Origin: Sphingobacteriales bacterium
GTDB taxonomy: Bacteria > Bacteroidota > Bacteroidia > Chitinophagales > Chitinophagaceae
Length of the DNA stretch: 48,468 nucleotides
Reading direction: 5' to 3'
Assembly (NCBI GenBank): GCA_004144175.1
Contig: SEFT01000023.1
Span: 1 to 48,468, forward strand
Both the position numbers and the translations under genes were made by a program. Of the stretch, positions 28,291 through 48,468 are shown one piece after another (positions within the stretch are counted from its first letter, which is position 1; the number at the start of each line of letters is the position of its first letter). The notes below the pieces were generated by a model. It ran no database searches and was not told the DNA's origin. It worked only from the letters and a program-made list of their open reading frames with translations.

Positions 28291-28366
28291 GACTTTGTAG
28301 CTCAGTTGGTAGAGCAGCTGACTCTTAATCAGCGGGTCTGGAGTTCGAGCCTCCACAAAGTCACCA
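28291..28366 (+). tRNA. tRNA-Lys (anticodon CTT)
   Basis: The full cloverleaf is present: acceptor stem GACTTTG/CAAAGTC, D arm GCTC/GAGC, anticodon stem GCTGA/TCAGC with loop CTCTTAA, T arm TGGAG/CTCCA, and an encoded CCA (28364-28366). The 3' half is intact, as expected when a mobile element inserts at a tRNA end and restores it. Confidence 0.97.
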
Positions 28367-28412
28367 ATACTGGCAAGGGTTTCAGCATTTTTCTGGAATC
28401 CTTTTTTTATTG

Positions 28413-28434
28413 CTACTCACAAACTACTCACAAA
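28413..28434. repeat. perfect tandem 11-bp repeat next to the attachment end
   Basis: CTACTCACAAA occurs twice without a gap, about 50 bases inside the tRNA 3' end. This distance suits an integrase arm-type binding site. Confidence 0.65.
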
Positions 28435-28482
28435 GCGCGGGCGTTTTATACCTGCTGATCTTCACTAAACCAGGTTAAGGCA

Positions 28483-28523
28483 TTAGTAACAGTGTTACTA
28501 AAGTGTTCCTAATTTGTTACTAA
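28483..28523. repeat. three GTTACTAA sites, one inverted
   Basis: TTAGTAAC (28483-28490) and GTTACTAA (28494-28501) form a perfect inverted pair with a 3-base loop. GTTACTAA recurs at 28516-28523. They look like a protein-binding cluster. Confidence 0.6.
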
Positions 28524-28551
28524 TCCTATAAAGTAAACACCAATTGAAATA

Positions 28552-28567
28552 GGTTGATTAATCAACC
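28552..28567. repeat. perfect 16-bp palindrome
   Basis: GGTTGATTAATCAACC is self-complementary over its full length, at the inner edge of the attachment-end repeat cluster. Confidence 0.65.
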
Positions 28568-28797
28568 ATAAACACACGGCAGCACCAAACCGGCACACCT
28601 ATAGCGCCTGCTGGCTGGCATTGCAACCGATCATAGCAACACTGGGCAACATCAAAAGAAACACCTACACGGCTGCGCCTACCCTTTCAGTACCCTAACG
28701 TTACCCTTTCGGCCACTACCTGGTATACAGTACCCGACTACTCACCGACTGGTTGGGTAGTACTTACATTACGGGCCGAGATATTGCCGATTTACCA

Positions 28798-45480: not shown

Positions 45481-45841
45481 ATGCTTGTCCTGGTTTTATG
45501 AATGAATTAGCGGCGCTCTCCCTTACCTCTTCGGCAGTAGATACTTTATGAGATGCAAACCATGCTTCTAACTCGTTTTCCTCGAAACGTAGCCCGCCTC
45601 TTTTAATGTGTGGTATTTGTTTTTTGTTTGCCCAGTTGTAGAAAGTGCCTGGTGCATAGCCGTACTTTTCGGCTGCCTGCTGTACTGTGAGGTATTTTTT
45701 CACCTTTTGCGGCTCAGGCATAGGTACAGCCCCGGTAAGGTAGCCCGCCCGCATAATAGTAGCAAGCATCCCCTTTATATCGGTTAGCTCACTTTGTAAT
45801 GTCTCGAATGGATTTGTGTAACCTGCTGCATTGCTGCTCAT
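45479..45841 (-). CDS. excisionase-like helix-turn-helix protein
   Basis: A 120-aa protein. After an N-terminal stretch (1-50), the MerR/HTH_17-type domain reads KKYLTVQQAAEKYGYAPGTFYNWANKKQIPHIKRGGLRFEENELEAWF, the standard excisionase-like form in Bacteroidota mobile elements. It would bind DNA near the attachment site to direct excision and may also regulate transcription. Leftward, with its promoter at 45867-45893 overlapped by an inverted repeat, suggesting autoregulation. Confidence 0.82.
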   Translation of the reverse strand: MSSNAAGYTNPFETLQSELTDIKGMLATIMRAGYLTGAVPMPEPQKVKKYLTVQQAAEKYGYAPGTFYNWANKKQIPHIKRGGLRFEENELEAWFASHKVSTAEEVRESAANSFIKPGQA

Positions 45842-45845
45842 AACC

Positions 45846-45918
45846 GTTTGCTTTATGATTATATAGCAAACGTATTATGATAAAAACCAGCAAAGTGGTT
45901 TAAAGTACTTTAAAGTAC
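45846..45918. promoter_or_regulatory. control region of the excisionase-like gene
   Basis: GTTTGCT / AGCAAAC (45846-45852, 45865-45871) overlaps the -7 element TACGTTTG (45867-45874, minus strand; a TTG lies at 45891-45893). Next to it is a perfect tandem repeat TTTAAAGTAC (45899-45908 and 45909-45918). Confidence 0.55.
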
Positions 45919-45992
45919 CTATTATTTTAGATTAGCCTAATTTTTTTTTGATACAAGGCGTAAAAACACCTTACAACTTCACTAAAACCATA

Positions 45993-46019
45993 TAAAAAAA
46001 AGGATAGTCGCCTATCCTT
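45993..46019 (-). terminator. intrinsic terminator overlapping the end of the 366-aa gene
   Basis: AAGGATAG / CTATCCTT with a 4-base loop and an A/T8 tail read on the minus strand. The TAG stop (46012-46014) lies in the stem, so translation through it may affect termination. Confidence 0.8.
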
Positions 46020-47112
46020 CATTTTCATTTTCCTTTTCTCTCAATTGGTTTAGTTCTGCGTCTAACAGCGCTAAGGGGGCGTTATGGTTCTCTTTTATTA
46101 GTAACGCCCTCACCCTTTCCATGCGCGCTATCGGTACTGCATAACTTGCCCCCTCTACCTTTCTGCGCCCATAGTCAAACCTATGCGCGGATTTCCGCAT
46201 ATCGGTTACATGGGTTAAGAATGTAGTACCTACCTGGCATGGGTAGTTATTTTCATCAAGGTACTGTTTAGCTTGTGTTGCATCAATAATTGCCGGGAAT
46301 TCTCCCGGATAGGCAACACTCATATAGTAACAATACAGCGCAATATCAGCGTGCTTAAAGGTTGCAAATTTGCTTACGCCTTGTTCTACCTGCTGAATGT
46401 CGTCCCCCCTCAAATACTGGTTTGCCAGCTCGGTAGGCGGTTTAATGCCTGGTATTGGAGGCTGCCCATACTTAACCCGGTAAATTGCGGATTCAGCGCG
46501 GGCCACTTCGTCAAGCGTATGATAAAAGTCTATTTGCTGCGCTGTATAACCTATCTGCCTTGTTATAAATTCCTGCATCCTGATTAGGGAGTAGTGCGGC
46601 CTATAAGTAAAATAAGGGGCGTTATGGAACTCAAAAGCTATGAAAACCCGTTCGTGTATGTAGGCGCGTTCTGTCATCCAGCTTTCAATCTCCAGTAGAA
46701 AGGCTTTAATCCTATCGTGTGTAACTAAATCTATTGTTGCAGCCCATGCAGCATTATGGGCATCCTCATAGGCCTGATTTGCTTTTATTTCTGCCTGCTT
46801 TATACGCTCCAGGCGCTCGGGGTTGTCCGCTATGGCGCGCATATTCTTTATATAGAACTCATGCGCAACCTCTACCCGCTTATAATGGTCATTATTGATC
46901 TTATCGAGTTGCTTTTGAGTGCGCTTTTCAGGGTCGCCCATTTCGGCCTTATAGGTATCAAAAGCGCTCTCATATCGTTTCTGCTCTTCGATCTGCTGGC
47001 TTTGCAATTGTGCCTTTAGGTCAAAAAATAACTCATCGTAGGCCTGCACAGCCATGTACCAATTCTTTACAATAGCAAGGGTATTTAATGATATTGAGCC
47101 GGAATTATTCAT
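46012..47112 (-). CDS. hypothetical protein with N-terminal coiled coil, coupled to the integrase
   Basis: A 366-aa soluble protein. Residues about 25-125 form a long charged coiled coil (LQSQQIEEQKRYESAF..., ERIKQAEIKANQAYED). The rest is helical with a His/Tyr-rich central domain (MTERAYIHERVFIAFEFHNAPYF) and a late HRFDYGRRKVEGASYAVP segment. No family is recognised. Its ATG overlaps the integrase stop by 8 bases and a terminator closes the transcript, so it is made with the integrase. It could assist recombination, or be a defence or exclusion gene; the sequence does not decide. Confidence 0.68.
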   Translation of the reverse strand: MNNSGSISLNTLAIVKNWYMAVQAYDELFFDLKAQLQSQQIEEQKRYESAFDTYKAEMGDPEKRTQKQLDKINNDHYKRVEVAHEFYIKNMRAIADNPERLERIKQAEIKANQAYEDAHNAAWAATIDLVTHDRIKAFLLEIESWMTERAYIHERVFIAFEFHNAPYFTYRPHYSLIRMQEFITRQIGYTAQQIDFYHTLDEVARAESAIYRVKYGQPPIPGIKPPTELANQYLRGDDIQQVEQGVSKFATFKHADIALYCYYMSVAYPGEFPAIIDATQAKQYLDENNYPCQVGTTFLTHVTDMRKSAHRFDYGRRKVEGASYAVPIARMERVRALLIKENHNAPLALLDAELNQLREKENENEG

Positions 47113-48457
47113 TTTCTTTCGGTTGTATGATGTTTAATAATTTGTTGCTGAGGTTAGAAACTGTTTCATTTTGAAAGCCGCCAAAGTATATTTCTGTTGT
47201 CTGCATCGATTTATGGCCGAGGCTCTGCTGTATCAAGGCTTTAGATTCGCCGCTCTGTATCGCATGGGTAGTGAAGCTGTGGCGCGCCCAGTTCGTCGAA
47301 AGGTCGATCTTATCCCCACCTTCGCCCATTATACCGGCTGCTTTAGCTACGGCCTTTATATGCTGGTTAATATACCTTACAAACTTTCGCCGGGCTATTA
47401 GCTTGCCCTCTTCATCCATGCGGTCACTTAAAACAGGGAATACGTAGCCCTTACGCGCCGGTGGATTGCCGTAACTCTCAATAACCCATCGGGTATAGTA
47501 GTTTAACGACGCAATAATGGGCTTTGCATTATCCTTTGTTGTGTTGATAGTCTTTGTTCTGTAAAAGGTAATTGTATCGCCTTTTATTTGGCCCCAATCC
47601 AGGTTACATATATCAGCAACGTTTAACCCATTGGTAAAATACGAGAAGAACCAAAACGCCCGCGCCCGTTCCTGTGGGCTGCCTGCTGTTACCTGATGGG
47701 CAAACAGTATCTTTATTGCATCCTGTGTCAAGTCCTTTTTTACTTTCCTGCCCGCTGGTATTACATACTGCCTTTTGCCAAACGGGTACATATCATCTGG
47801 AATGTCCTTTACTGCTATAGCCTTATTGAAAATAGCCCTCAGTGGGCGTAAATAAATGCCTACTGTCGTCCGGCTGCTGCCATTCTGAAGCATCCATGTT
47901 TCGTACCCATTCAAATATTTTGGGGTTATATCAGCAAATGGTAATATAGGTACCACCTTTAACGCTGCTTCGATATTGTCCTCTCGGGTTTTAGCCTGGC
48001 TTAGGTCGATCACCTTTTTTAGCCGGTGGGCCTGGTACATTAGCAGGGACCGTAAAGAAAGACGGTAATTATCAGCGGTGCCGATGTTGCCCTGTTCCCT
48101 TAGTTCTGCAATGTATTCTTTATATGCCGGTATTGCGTCCCCTTTCCGGCCTAACCCTTTATGTAATATCTTTTCAAACGATTCAAATGTAAACCGGGTG
48201 AGCGTTTTTATAACGTCCTTTGCGTTCGTTTCCTGCGCCTGGAGATAGTCGTGTAAGAGCTGGTATTTAGATTTGGGCCTTTGTGCTAAATACGCCCCCT
48301 CAAACTCTTCTGCCGTCAAGTATAGAGGCAGCCCCTTTTCATTTATATGATATAGCCGGGTTTTTGCTGCATGGTACACCCTCAGGTAAACAGAGTGTTT
48401 GCCGTCTGTCCTCGGCTTACGGGTATCGTGATATATCGAAACTTTAACGCTACTCAT
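47105..48457 (-). CDS. tyrosine recombinase (integrase) of the element
   Basis: A 450-aa protein. A SAM-like N-terminal core-binding domain (about residues 110-215) precedes the catalytic domain (about 240-430). Visible active-site elements: K302 (FYRTKTINT), R392-H393 (NWARHSFTT), H415 (LGHKSM) and the nucleophile Y424 (TEIYFGGF). The usual first Arg is replaced: the segment FTNGLNVADICNL has Asn (about 279) where other recombinases have Arg, as also known for the CTnDOT group. It directs integration at tRNA-Lys (inferred from position). It starts 11 bases from the right edge, so its promoter lies outside. Confidence 0.92.
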   Translation of the reverse strand: MSSVKVSIYHDTRKPRTDGKHSVYLRVYHAAKTRLYHINEKGLPLYLTAEEFEGAYLAQRPKSKYQLLHDYLQAQETNAKDVIKTLTRFTFESFEKILHKGLGRKGDAIPAYKEYIAELREQGNIGTADNYRLSLRSLLMYQAHRLKKVIDLSQAKTREDNIEAALKVVPILPFADITPKYLNGYETWMLQNGSSRTTVGIYLRPLRAIFNKAIAVKDIPDDMYPFGKRQYVIPAGRKVKKDLTQDAIKILFAHQVTAGSPQERARAFWFFSYFTNGLNVADICNLDWGQIKGDTITFYRTKTINTTKDNAKPIIASLNYYTRWVIESYGNPPARKGYVFPVLSDRMDEEGKLIARRKFVRYINQHIKAVAKAAGIMGEGGDKIDLSTNWARHSFTTHAIQSGESKALIQQSLGHKSMQTTEIYFGGFQNETVSNLSNKLLNIIQPKENE

Positions 48458-48468
48458 TTATTATACGC

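Follow-up and report, generated by a model that had tools for sequence, protein, structure and literature searches.

The window analysed here is a stretch of 48,468 nucleotides from a Sphingobacteriales bacterium of the Chitinophagaceae (Bacteroidota). It makes up the whole of contig C89 (SEFT01000023.1) in an assembly of 93 contigs and 4.34 Mb that is 97.6% complete, and from position 28291 to its right-hand edge it carries an integrated element with a tRNA-Lys gene at one end and an integrase gene at the other. We propose that this is a complete satellite-like element equipped with a tail-initiation module, and that it most likely forms chimeric tails together with a helper myophage. The anatomy of the element is directly visible in the DNA, whereas the chimeric tail, the helper and any benefit to the satellite are what we infer from it, partly by analogy with the phage-inducible chromosomal island-like elements (PLEs) of Vibrio. 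A phage satellite that remodels the tail of a helper had already been suggested in the initial annotation of this DNA, and with no head genes found and attachment (att) repeats at both ends it is the best-supported reading of what is still a putative function.

The tail-initiation block and the missing virion genes

The host genome contains two contractile-phage gene clusters, on contigs C88 and C77, and the tail genes of the element are closely related in organization to those of C88. On the reverse strand the element encodes, in order, a tail assembly chaperone, a tape measure, two DUF6046 proteins, a baseplate hub and a tail spike, compactly arranged with gaps of -4 to 78 nt. The chaperone (41212–41628) has no match in the Pfam and PHROGs libraries and was assigned by homology and position, being 49% identical to a C88 homologue that lies between tube and tape measure, and by profile alignment to families built in this analysis; its structural model (pLDDT 86.8) has the uncharacterised entry 3fgx as best fold match (E 0.015), with the HK97 chaperone 2ob9 a weak second (E 0.11). 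The tape measure (39391–41133; TMP_3 E 2.4e-32, PHROG E 5.8e-50) shares 22 to 26% identity with that of C88, and its length of 580 aa compares with 561 aa in C88 and 608 aa in C77. DUF6046 copy a (38771–39382), assigned by its Pfam family, is nearest to the C88 protein (46%), and copy b (38133–38774; Pfam E 5.5e-14) is predicted to adopt a tail-tube/Dit/tube-initiator fold. Foldseek searches with the AlphaFold model of copy b (pLDDT 84.8) retrieve baseplate and tube entries, as named by their titles, from phages, pyocins and injection systems, the best at E 8e-6, with TM-scores up to ∼0.47 by query length and SPP1 Dit further down (E 1.8e-3). The two Dit-like proteins of the initial annotation are thus upheld, by family membership for both copies and by fold for the second. 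The hub (36903–38129; PHROG baseplate hub E 8.4e-33) is 44% identical to the C88 hub, and the spike (36147–36893), whose family we named from its position after the hub, is recognised by profile alignment (probability 99.8; 26% identity to C88). For the hub, the chaperone and DUF6046, sequence searches of the PDB yielded nothing useful. Downstream of the spike gene is a terminator-like hairpin, one of 41 sites returned by a permissive scan in which 22.8 were expected.

In C88, the terminase, portal, head protease, tail sheath and a tail protein at the tube position are named from PHROGs, whereas position is the basis for naming gp25, gpJ and the capsid-like protein, the last of which gives a good match only to a family without known function. 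Gene content and gene order of the block agree with those of the C88 stretch between tube and gp25, a gene for a secreted-type protein lying on the opposite strand; within this stretch, C88 additionally carries three small open reading frames (ORFs) and contains one DUF6046 gene. The element has in common with these Bacteroidota myoprophages the chaperone, tape measure, DUF6046, hub, spike and secreted-protein genes, whereas the terminase, portal, head protease, sheath, tube, gp25 and gpJ families of the C88 and C77 clusters were not detected in it. As the tube gene of C77 is split across two frames, C88 is the better helper candidate. C88 is apparently cut by the start of its contig, and its own integration genes may therefore lie elsewhere. 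The C77 cluster (∼7790–30929; loci L017 and L018) spans ∼23 kb of late genes from terminase to lysis-type ORFs, and no integrase or replication gene was noticed by eye among the neighbouring ORFs.

None of the 171 element ORFs of at least 30 aa matches the profiles for terminase, portal, protease, capsid-like protein, tube, sheath, gp25 or gpJ (E 0.01), in agreement with the earlier observation that capsid, portal, terminase, tube and sheath could not be recognised. When 24 predicted products were aligned as profiles with 18 virion families (among which portal and TerL comprise just 5 and 2 sequences), strong matches were confined to the tail-core genes, the highest others scoring 76, 17 and 11. 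Neither by sequence nor by profile were head, packaging or tube genes found to the right of the integrase or among the unassigned proteins, and the profile search of the ORFs likewise revealed no sheath or tube of a tailocin or contractile injection system. Across the genome there are three hubs (C77, C88 and C89) as opposed to two sheath-family genes (C77 and C88, the sheath name being taken from PHROGs), and the assembly, which is 97.6% complete, yielded no more of either.

Element ends, mobility and replication genes

Integration into the tRNA-Lys(CTT) gene (28291–28366, forward strand; identified by ARAGORN) is demonstrated by the att repeats. The tRNA-Lys 3′ end, whose right-hand repeat had been asked for in the initial annotation, recurs exactly only once more in the assembly; this second copy lies on contig C72, at 264 nt from the contig end and in the correct orientation. 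The full direct repeat measures 47 bp, the attL core at window positions 28318–28364 being identical to positions 240–286 of the reverse-complemented C72 (attR). In addition, the last 9 bases of the window are identical to the first 9 of reverse-complemented C72; end overlaps of at least 9 bases arose in 24 of 200000 random pairs, which serves as a chance estimate for this join. Both ends of the element also carry a pair of ACTCACAAA with a spacing of 11 nt (window 28415 and 28426; C72 96 and 107), and these direct repeats (28415–28434 in the window, no strand assigned) may represent arm-type sites of the integrase. The window stops 11 nt past the integrase start codon, from which it is ∼240 nt to attR. 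With attR at C72 240–286 and an overlap of 9 bases, the window would therefore end ∼277 nt before the element does, giving a joined length of ∼20.4 kb (20,426 bp when the last 2 nt of the repeat are omitted). Thus, on the evidence of the overlap and of the exact tRNA-Lys repeat 240 nt into C72, the element appears complete, with no room for head genes, where the join is one that we infer from matching contig ends rather than read across. The view that the element is complete as seen would consequently hold for the element but not for the window, which misses its right end. The left flank is supported by 6 of the 11 genus relatives examined (14 relatives had a match), in which tRNA-Lys adjoins a homologue of the window gene at 26938–28230. 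The response regulator of the right flank was not found in any of these 11 loci, and the empty site is therefore not demonstrated end to end.

The genes for mobility and replication lie at the integrase end, all on the reverse strand. The tyrosine integrase (47105–48457; Pfam PF00589 E 2.2e-12, PHROG E 9.8e-26) is followed by a 366-aa protein (46012–47112) that has no match among 395 other genomes of the order, and a pattern scan of viral contigs, sensitive to close relatives only, returned nothing for either. Next are an excisionase-like helix-turn-helix protein (45479–45841; PHROG 66, E 9e-11), a small PHROG 2113 protein (44993–45370; E 4.1e-11), a PrimPol/superfamily 3 (SF3)-type helicase of the DUF5906 type (42435–44999; Pfam E 3e-9 and 5.1e-7, PHROG E 1.3e-70), a nuclease with weak VRR-NUC likeness (41909–42442; Pfam E 0.0035, below the cut-off; PHROG endonuclease E 6.4e-7) and a 58-aa ORF with neither family match nor assigned function (41630–41806). 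Pfam, PHROG and family profiles thereby bear out the gene set first described, namely integrase, excisionase-like protein, PrimPol/helicase, nuclease, chaperone, tape measure, hub and spike. Relatives of the primase with 45 to 46% identity occur in two other genomes (G277 and G379), amid long runs of what, judged by eye, are other prophage-like ORFs. Only one primase of this kind was found in the host genome, and the element therefore does not resemble what simple deletion from C88 or C77 would leave. Altogether, the element has three of the traits by which satellites are recognised, that is, an integrase with att repeats, an incomplete set of genes for an autonomous virion, and its own replication and excision genes, the last of these identified by family.

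A probably maintained tail module and the alternatives

The organization of the tail block was compared with that of 165 hub-bearing loci, which comprise a set of 93 (one part being the best 80 of 90) and 72 of 73 fetched regions, the other fetched region lacking a hub; a few loci represent the same contig twice. A sheath or tube gene precedes the hub in 99 of the 101 loci with at least 7 kb upstream, and the remaining two are a single Mucilaginibacter integrase-element locus seen twice (L082 and L265). Where less than 7 kb is available upstream (64 loci), a sheath or tube was present in 31 and none in 33. Two full DUF6046 genes were found in none of the other scanned hub loci, L153 having two short pieces. 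Copy b pairs in the tree with the protein of L109; this pairing was discounted as an effect of long branches because L109 shows a single DUF6046 gene adjoining the end of its tape measure. A metagenome scaffold from a bog (L085, positions 1–6432) has a tail block from chaperone to gpJ without sheath or tube in 6.4 kb upstream, and may be a chimera or a further case. It was not counted, with a gap of undetermined bases (N) just before the block and gp25 and gpJ retained.

The Mucilaginibacter case lies at a contig end of Mucilaginibacter sp. UR6-11, where a tyrosine-type integrase, an unknown protein, an excisionase-like helix-turn-helix protein, two ORFs, a virion-family protein (by profile), DUF6046 and a hub succeed one another. 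This genome has one hub, and no sheath was detected in it with the model that found both sheaths in the host genome of the window. In the hub tree, UR6-11 pairs with a phage locus from Mucilaginibacter (L080; support 100), the two hubs being 65% identical. The hub of the window falls with those of C88, C77 and L109, at a lower support of 94 (drawn open). As the hubs of the two elements group with different phages, tail-initiation genes were likely captured twice, once within each host group.

Several features of the block favour a maintained module, within the limit that one genome cannot show selection. Its ORFs are intact and tightly packed, and conserved columns are largely kept (hub 15/17, chaperone 9/9, DUF6046 copy a 6/8, copy b 7/8, spike 4/5). 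Divergence is at about the phage-to-phage level for the hub (median identity to phages of 36.8% as against 37.7% between phages), chaperone (35.9 and 31.8%), tape measure (24.9 and 27.1%) and spike (30.5 and 32.8%), and is somewhat greater for DUF6046 copy a (29.7 and 34.9%).

In the mechanism that we envisage, the satellite would excise and replicate by means of its own integrase, excisionase and PrimPol-helicase, functions assigned from their families. While a helper myophage makes its virions, the satellite would add a tail-initiation complex composed of chaperone, tape measure, two Dit/tube-initiator rings, hub and spike, upon which the tube would polymerise around the satellite tape measure. 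The helper would supply tube, sheath, outer baseplate wedge (gp25 and gpJ), fibres, head and terminase. Inner tail parts are present in few copies in other contractile tails, and the satellite would thus encode the few-copy inner parts and borrow those needed in many copies. Such an arrangement would favour the provision of tails to satellite particles and could leave the helper short of complete tails; it could also alter tail length or DNA entry. Put more generally, and somewhat more tentatively, an unrelated Bacteroidota lineage of satellites may supply the whole tail-initiation complex and leave every many-copy virion part to a helper. Capture of the tail-initiation genes would then have occurred at least twice, in this element and in the smaller Mucilaginibacter element, each time from phages near the respective host group.

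Certain observations weigh against a satellite of this kind. In the share of conserved columns that they keep, hub and spike rank at about the bottom tenth of phages, and DUF6046 copy a slightly lower. No cos- or pac-like site common to the element and C88 or C77 was found, the longest exact shared word being 18 bp, which lies inside the hub gene and compares with a longest word of 19 bp in the control. The UR6-11 case is cut by the contig end, the right end of that element was not found, and its tail genes are limited to DUF6046, hub and one virion-type protein. Furthermore, the searches made for relatives of the element in its entirety returned none, leaving it a singleton. The latter point would also suit a defective prophage, i.e. 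a myophage that lost terminase-to-tube and gp25-to-lysis and kept an integrase, the replication genes and a tail-core block that it no longer uses; the block does match a contiguous C88-like segment, in the very order that two such internal deletions would leave. We regard this as unlikely, though it is the main alternative: no ORF of the tail block is broken, the packing is tight and conserved residues are mostly kept, a second full DUF6046 gene is present that no other scanned hub locus has, no trace of the neighbouring phage genes is seen in the 171 ORFs, and the independent Mucilaginibacter element is similarly configured.

The other explanations are less probable still. Satellites and prophages are known to block tail assembly, as the available parts of two sources describe for Tai (PMC11364771) and for Rta in PLE11 (PMC12987554), and a satellite or defence island might accordingly deploy its tail-core proteins purely as decoys, which would poison tail assembly in phages that arrive or already reside in the cell and would not enter particles made by the island itself. 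Rta is, however, a dedicated 80-aa protein in the available part of that source, and a full initiation complex with chaperone and tape measure would exceed what blocking needs, such that we consider the decoy improbable. An assembly artefact, in which the contig end would interrupt a larger prophage and head genes between integrase and attR would have gone unassembled, had been the main alternative at the outset, and it draws on the contig stopping just past the integrase start codon and on the unread C72 join; the 9-base overlap, the position of attR 240 nt into C72 and the genome-wide counts of sheaths and hubs make it very improbable. A domesticated injection device or host tailocin, also raised initially, would account for a tail tip and spike without a head, but it is the least credible of these readings given that the element lacks sheath and tube, that the two sheath genes found in the genome both lie in prophage clusters, and that integrase, att sites and replication genes are retained.

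Accessory genes and relation to known satellites

Between the tRNA gene and the tail block the element carries further genes. The secreted-type protein with a C-terminal sorting domain (Por_Secre_tail; 35371–36111, forward strand) has homologues in C88 (48%) and C77 (36%), and in the element as well as in both prophage clusters (C88:37676–38407; C77:24665–25471) its gene lies opposite the spike gene. The gene may travel as cargo with the tail module; the first 70 residues of the protein match a 125-aa virion family with a profile probability of 76. A HicA/HicB-like toxin–antitoxin pair is weakly indicated at 34279–34878 on the reverse strand (Pfam HicA below cut-off; PHROG toxin E 2.2e-5 and HicB-like antitoxin E 3.6e-4). 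No function could be assigned to two forward ORFs of 116 and 258 aa (32860–33994) or to six reverse ORFs of 258, 241, 150, 151, 65 and 65 aa (29792–32645), the last of which has a very weak likeness to Arc repressor (E 0.064). The neighbouring 258- and 241-aa proteins among the six (29792–31350) are paralogues of each other (mutual E ∼1e-27) with no family match.

Satellites are known for capsid theft and remodelling, and chimeric tails have a precedent in Vibrio cholerae. In the available part of the source (PMC12987554, Nature 2026), PLEs encode a tape measure and chaperone, and PLE11 also a hub, the satellite tape measure and hub replacing those of the phage in PLE11 particles; deletion of tmp lowers transduction by 96 to 99.9% in PLE1, PLE4 and PLE11. 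Putative tmp genes are noted there in PLE-like elements and in a sampling of capsid-forming phage-inducible chromosomal islands (cf-PICIs) (Extended Data Fig. 10), and its authors leave the benefit of the chimeric tail open and call PLEs the first such family. The element described here resembles PLEs as that text presents them, in that an integrated satellite has its own tape measure and chaperone and, as in PLE11, its own hub, while the phage provides the other tail parts and the capsid; the chaperone of the element is identified by homology and place, its fold support being weak. The hub of PLE11 is 41% identical to that of its helper (PMC12987554, available part), a value close to the 44% between the element and C88 as candidate helper. 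The differences lie in the host, which is a Vibrio for PLEs and a Chitinophagaceae bacterium of another phylum here, in the PrimPol replication, and in the additional spike and two DUF6046 rings. The PLE integrase is of the serine type, and with its tyrosine integrase and its host the element falls outside the PLE family. The helper is a lytic phage for PLEs, whereas the candidates here are prophages of the same genome, known from their genes. Capsid-forming PICIs make their own capsid and similarly encode part of the virion, whereas no capsid, portal, terminase or other packaging gene was detected in the element. P4-like satellites have an integrase and primase-helicase with no virion set, a combination also seen here; to our knowledge P4 has no tail-initiation module, and the P4-type primase model TIGR01613 scores 18.1 bits against a cut-off of 108.7.

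No chimeric-tail satellite from Bacteroidota was among the matches listed in the literature (mainly open-access, with few preprints). Given the PLE precedent, the kind of system is therefore already known, and it is the Bacteroidota lineage, the spike and the double ring that appear to be new. The extra DUF6046 ring suggests that it could act as an adaptor, and the presence of candidate helper prophages in the same genome makes the question of the helper addressable in one strain. If the reading of a satellite with chimeric tails is correct, the larger tail module of a second lineage, unrelated to PLEs, would show that the seizure of tail initiation is a recurrent outcome of evolution. On the wider and more tentative reading of at least two captures in Bacteroidota, such control would rank beside capsid remodelling as a general strategy of satellites.

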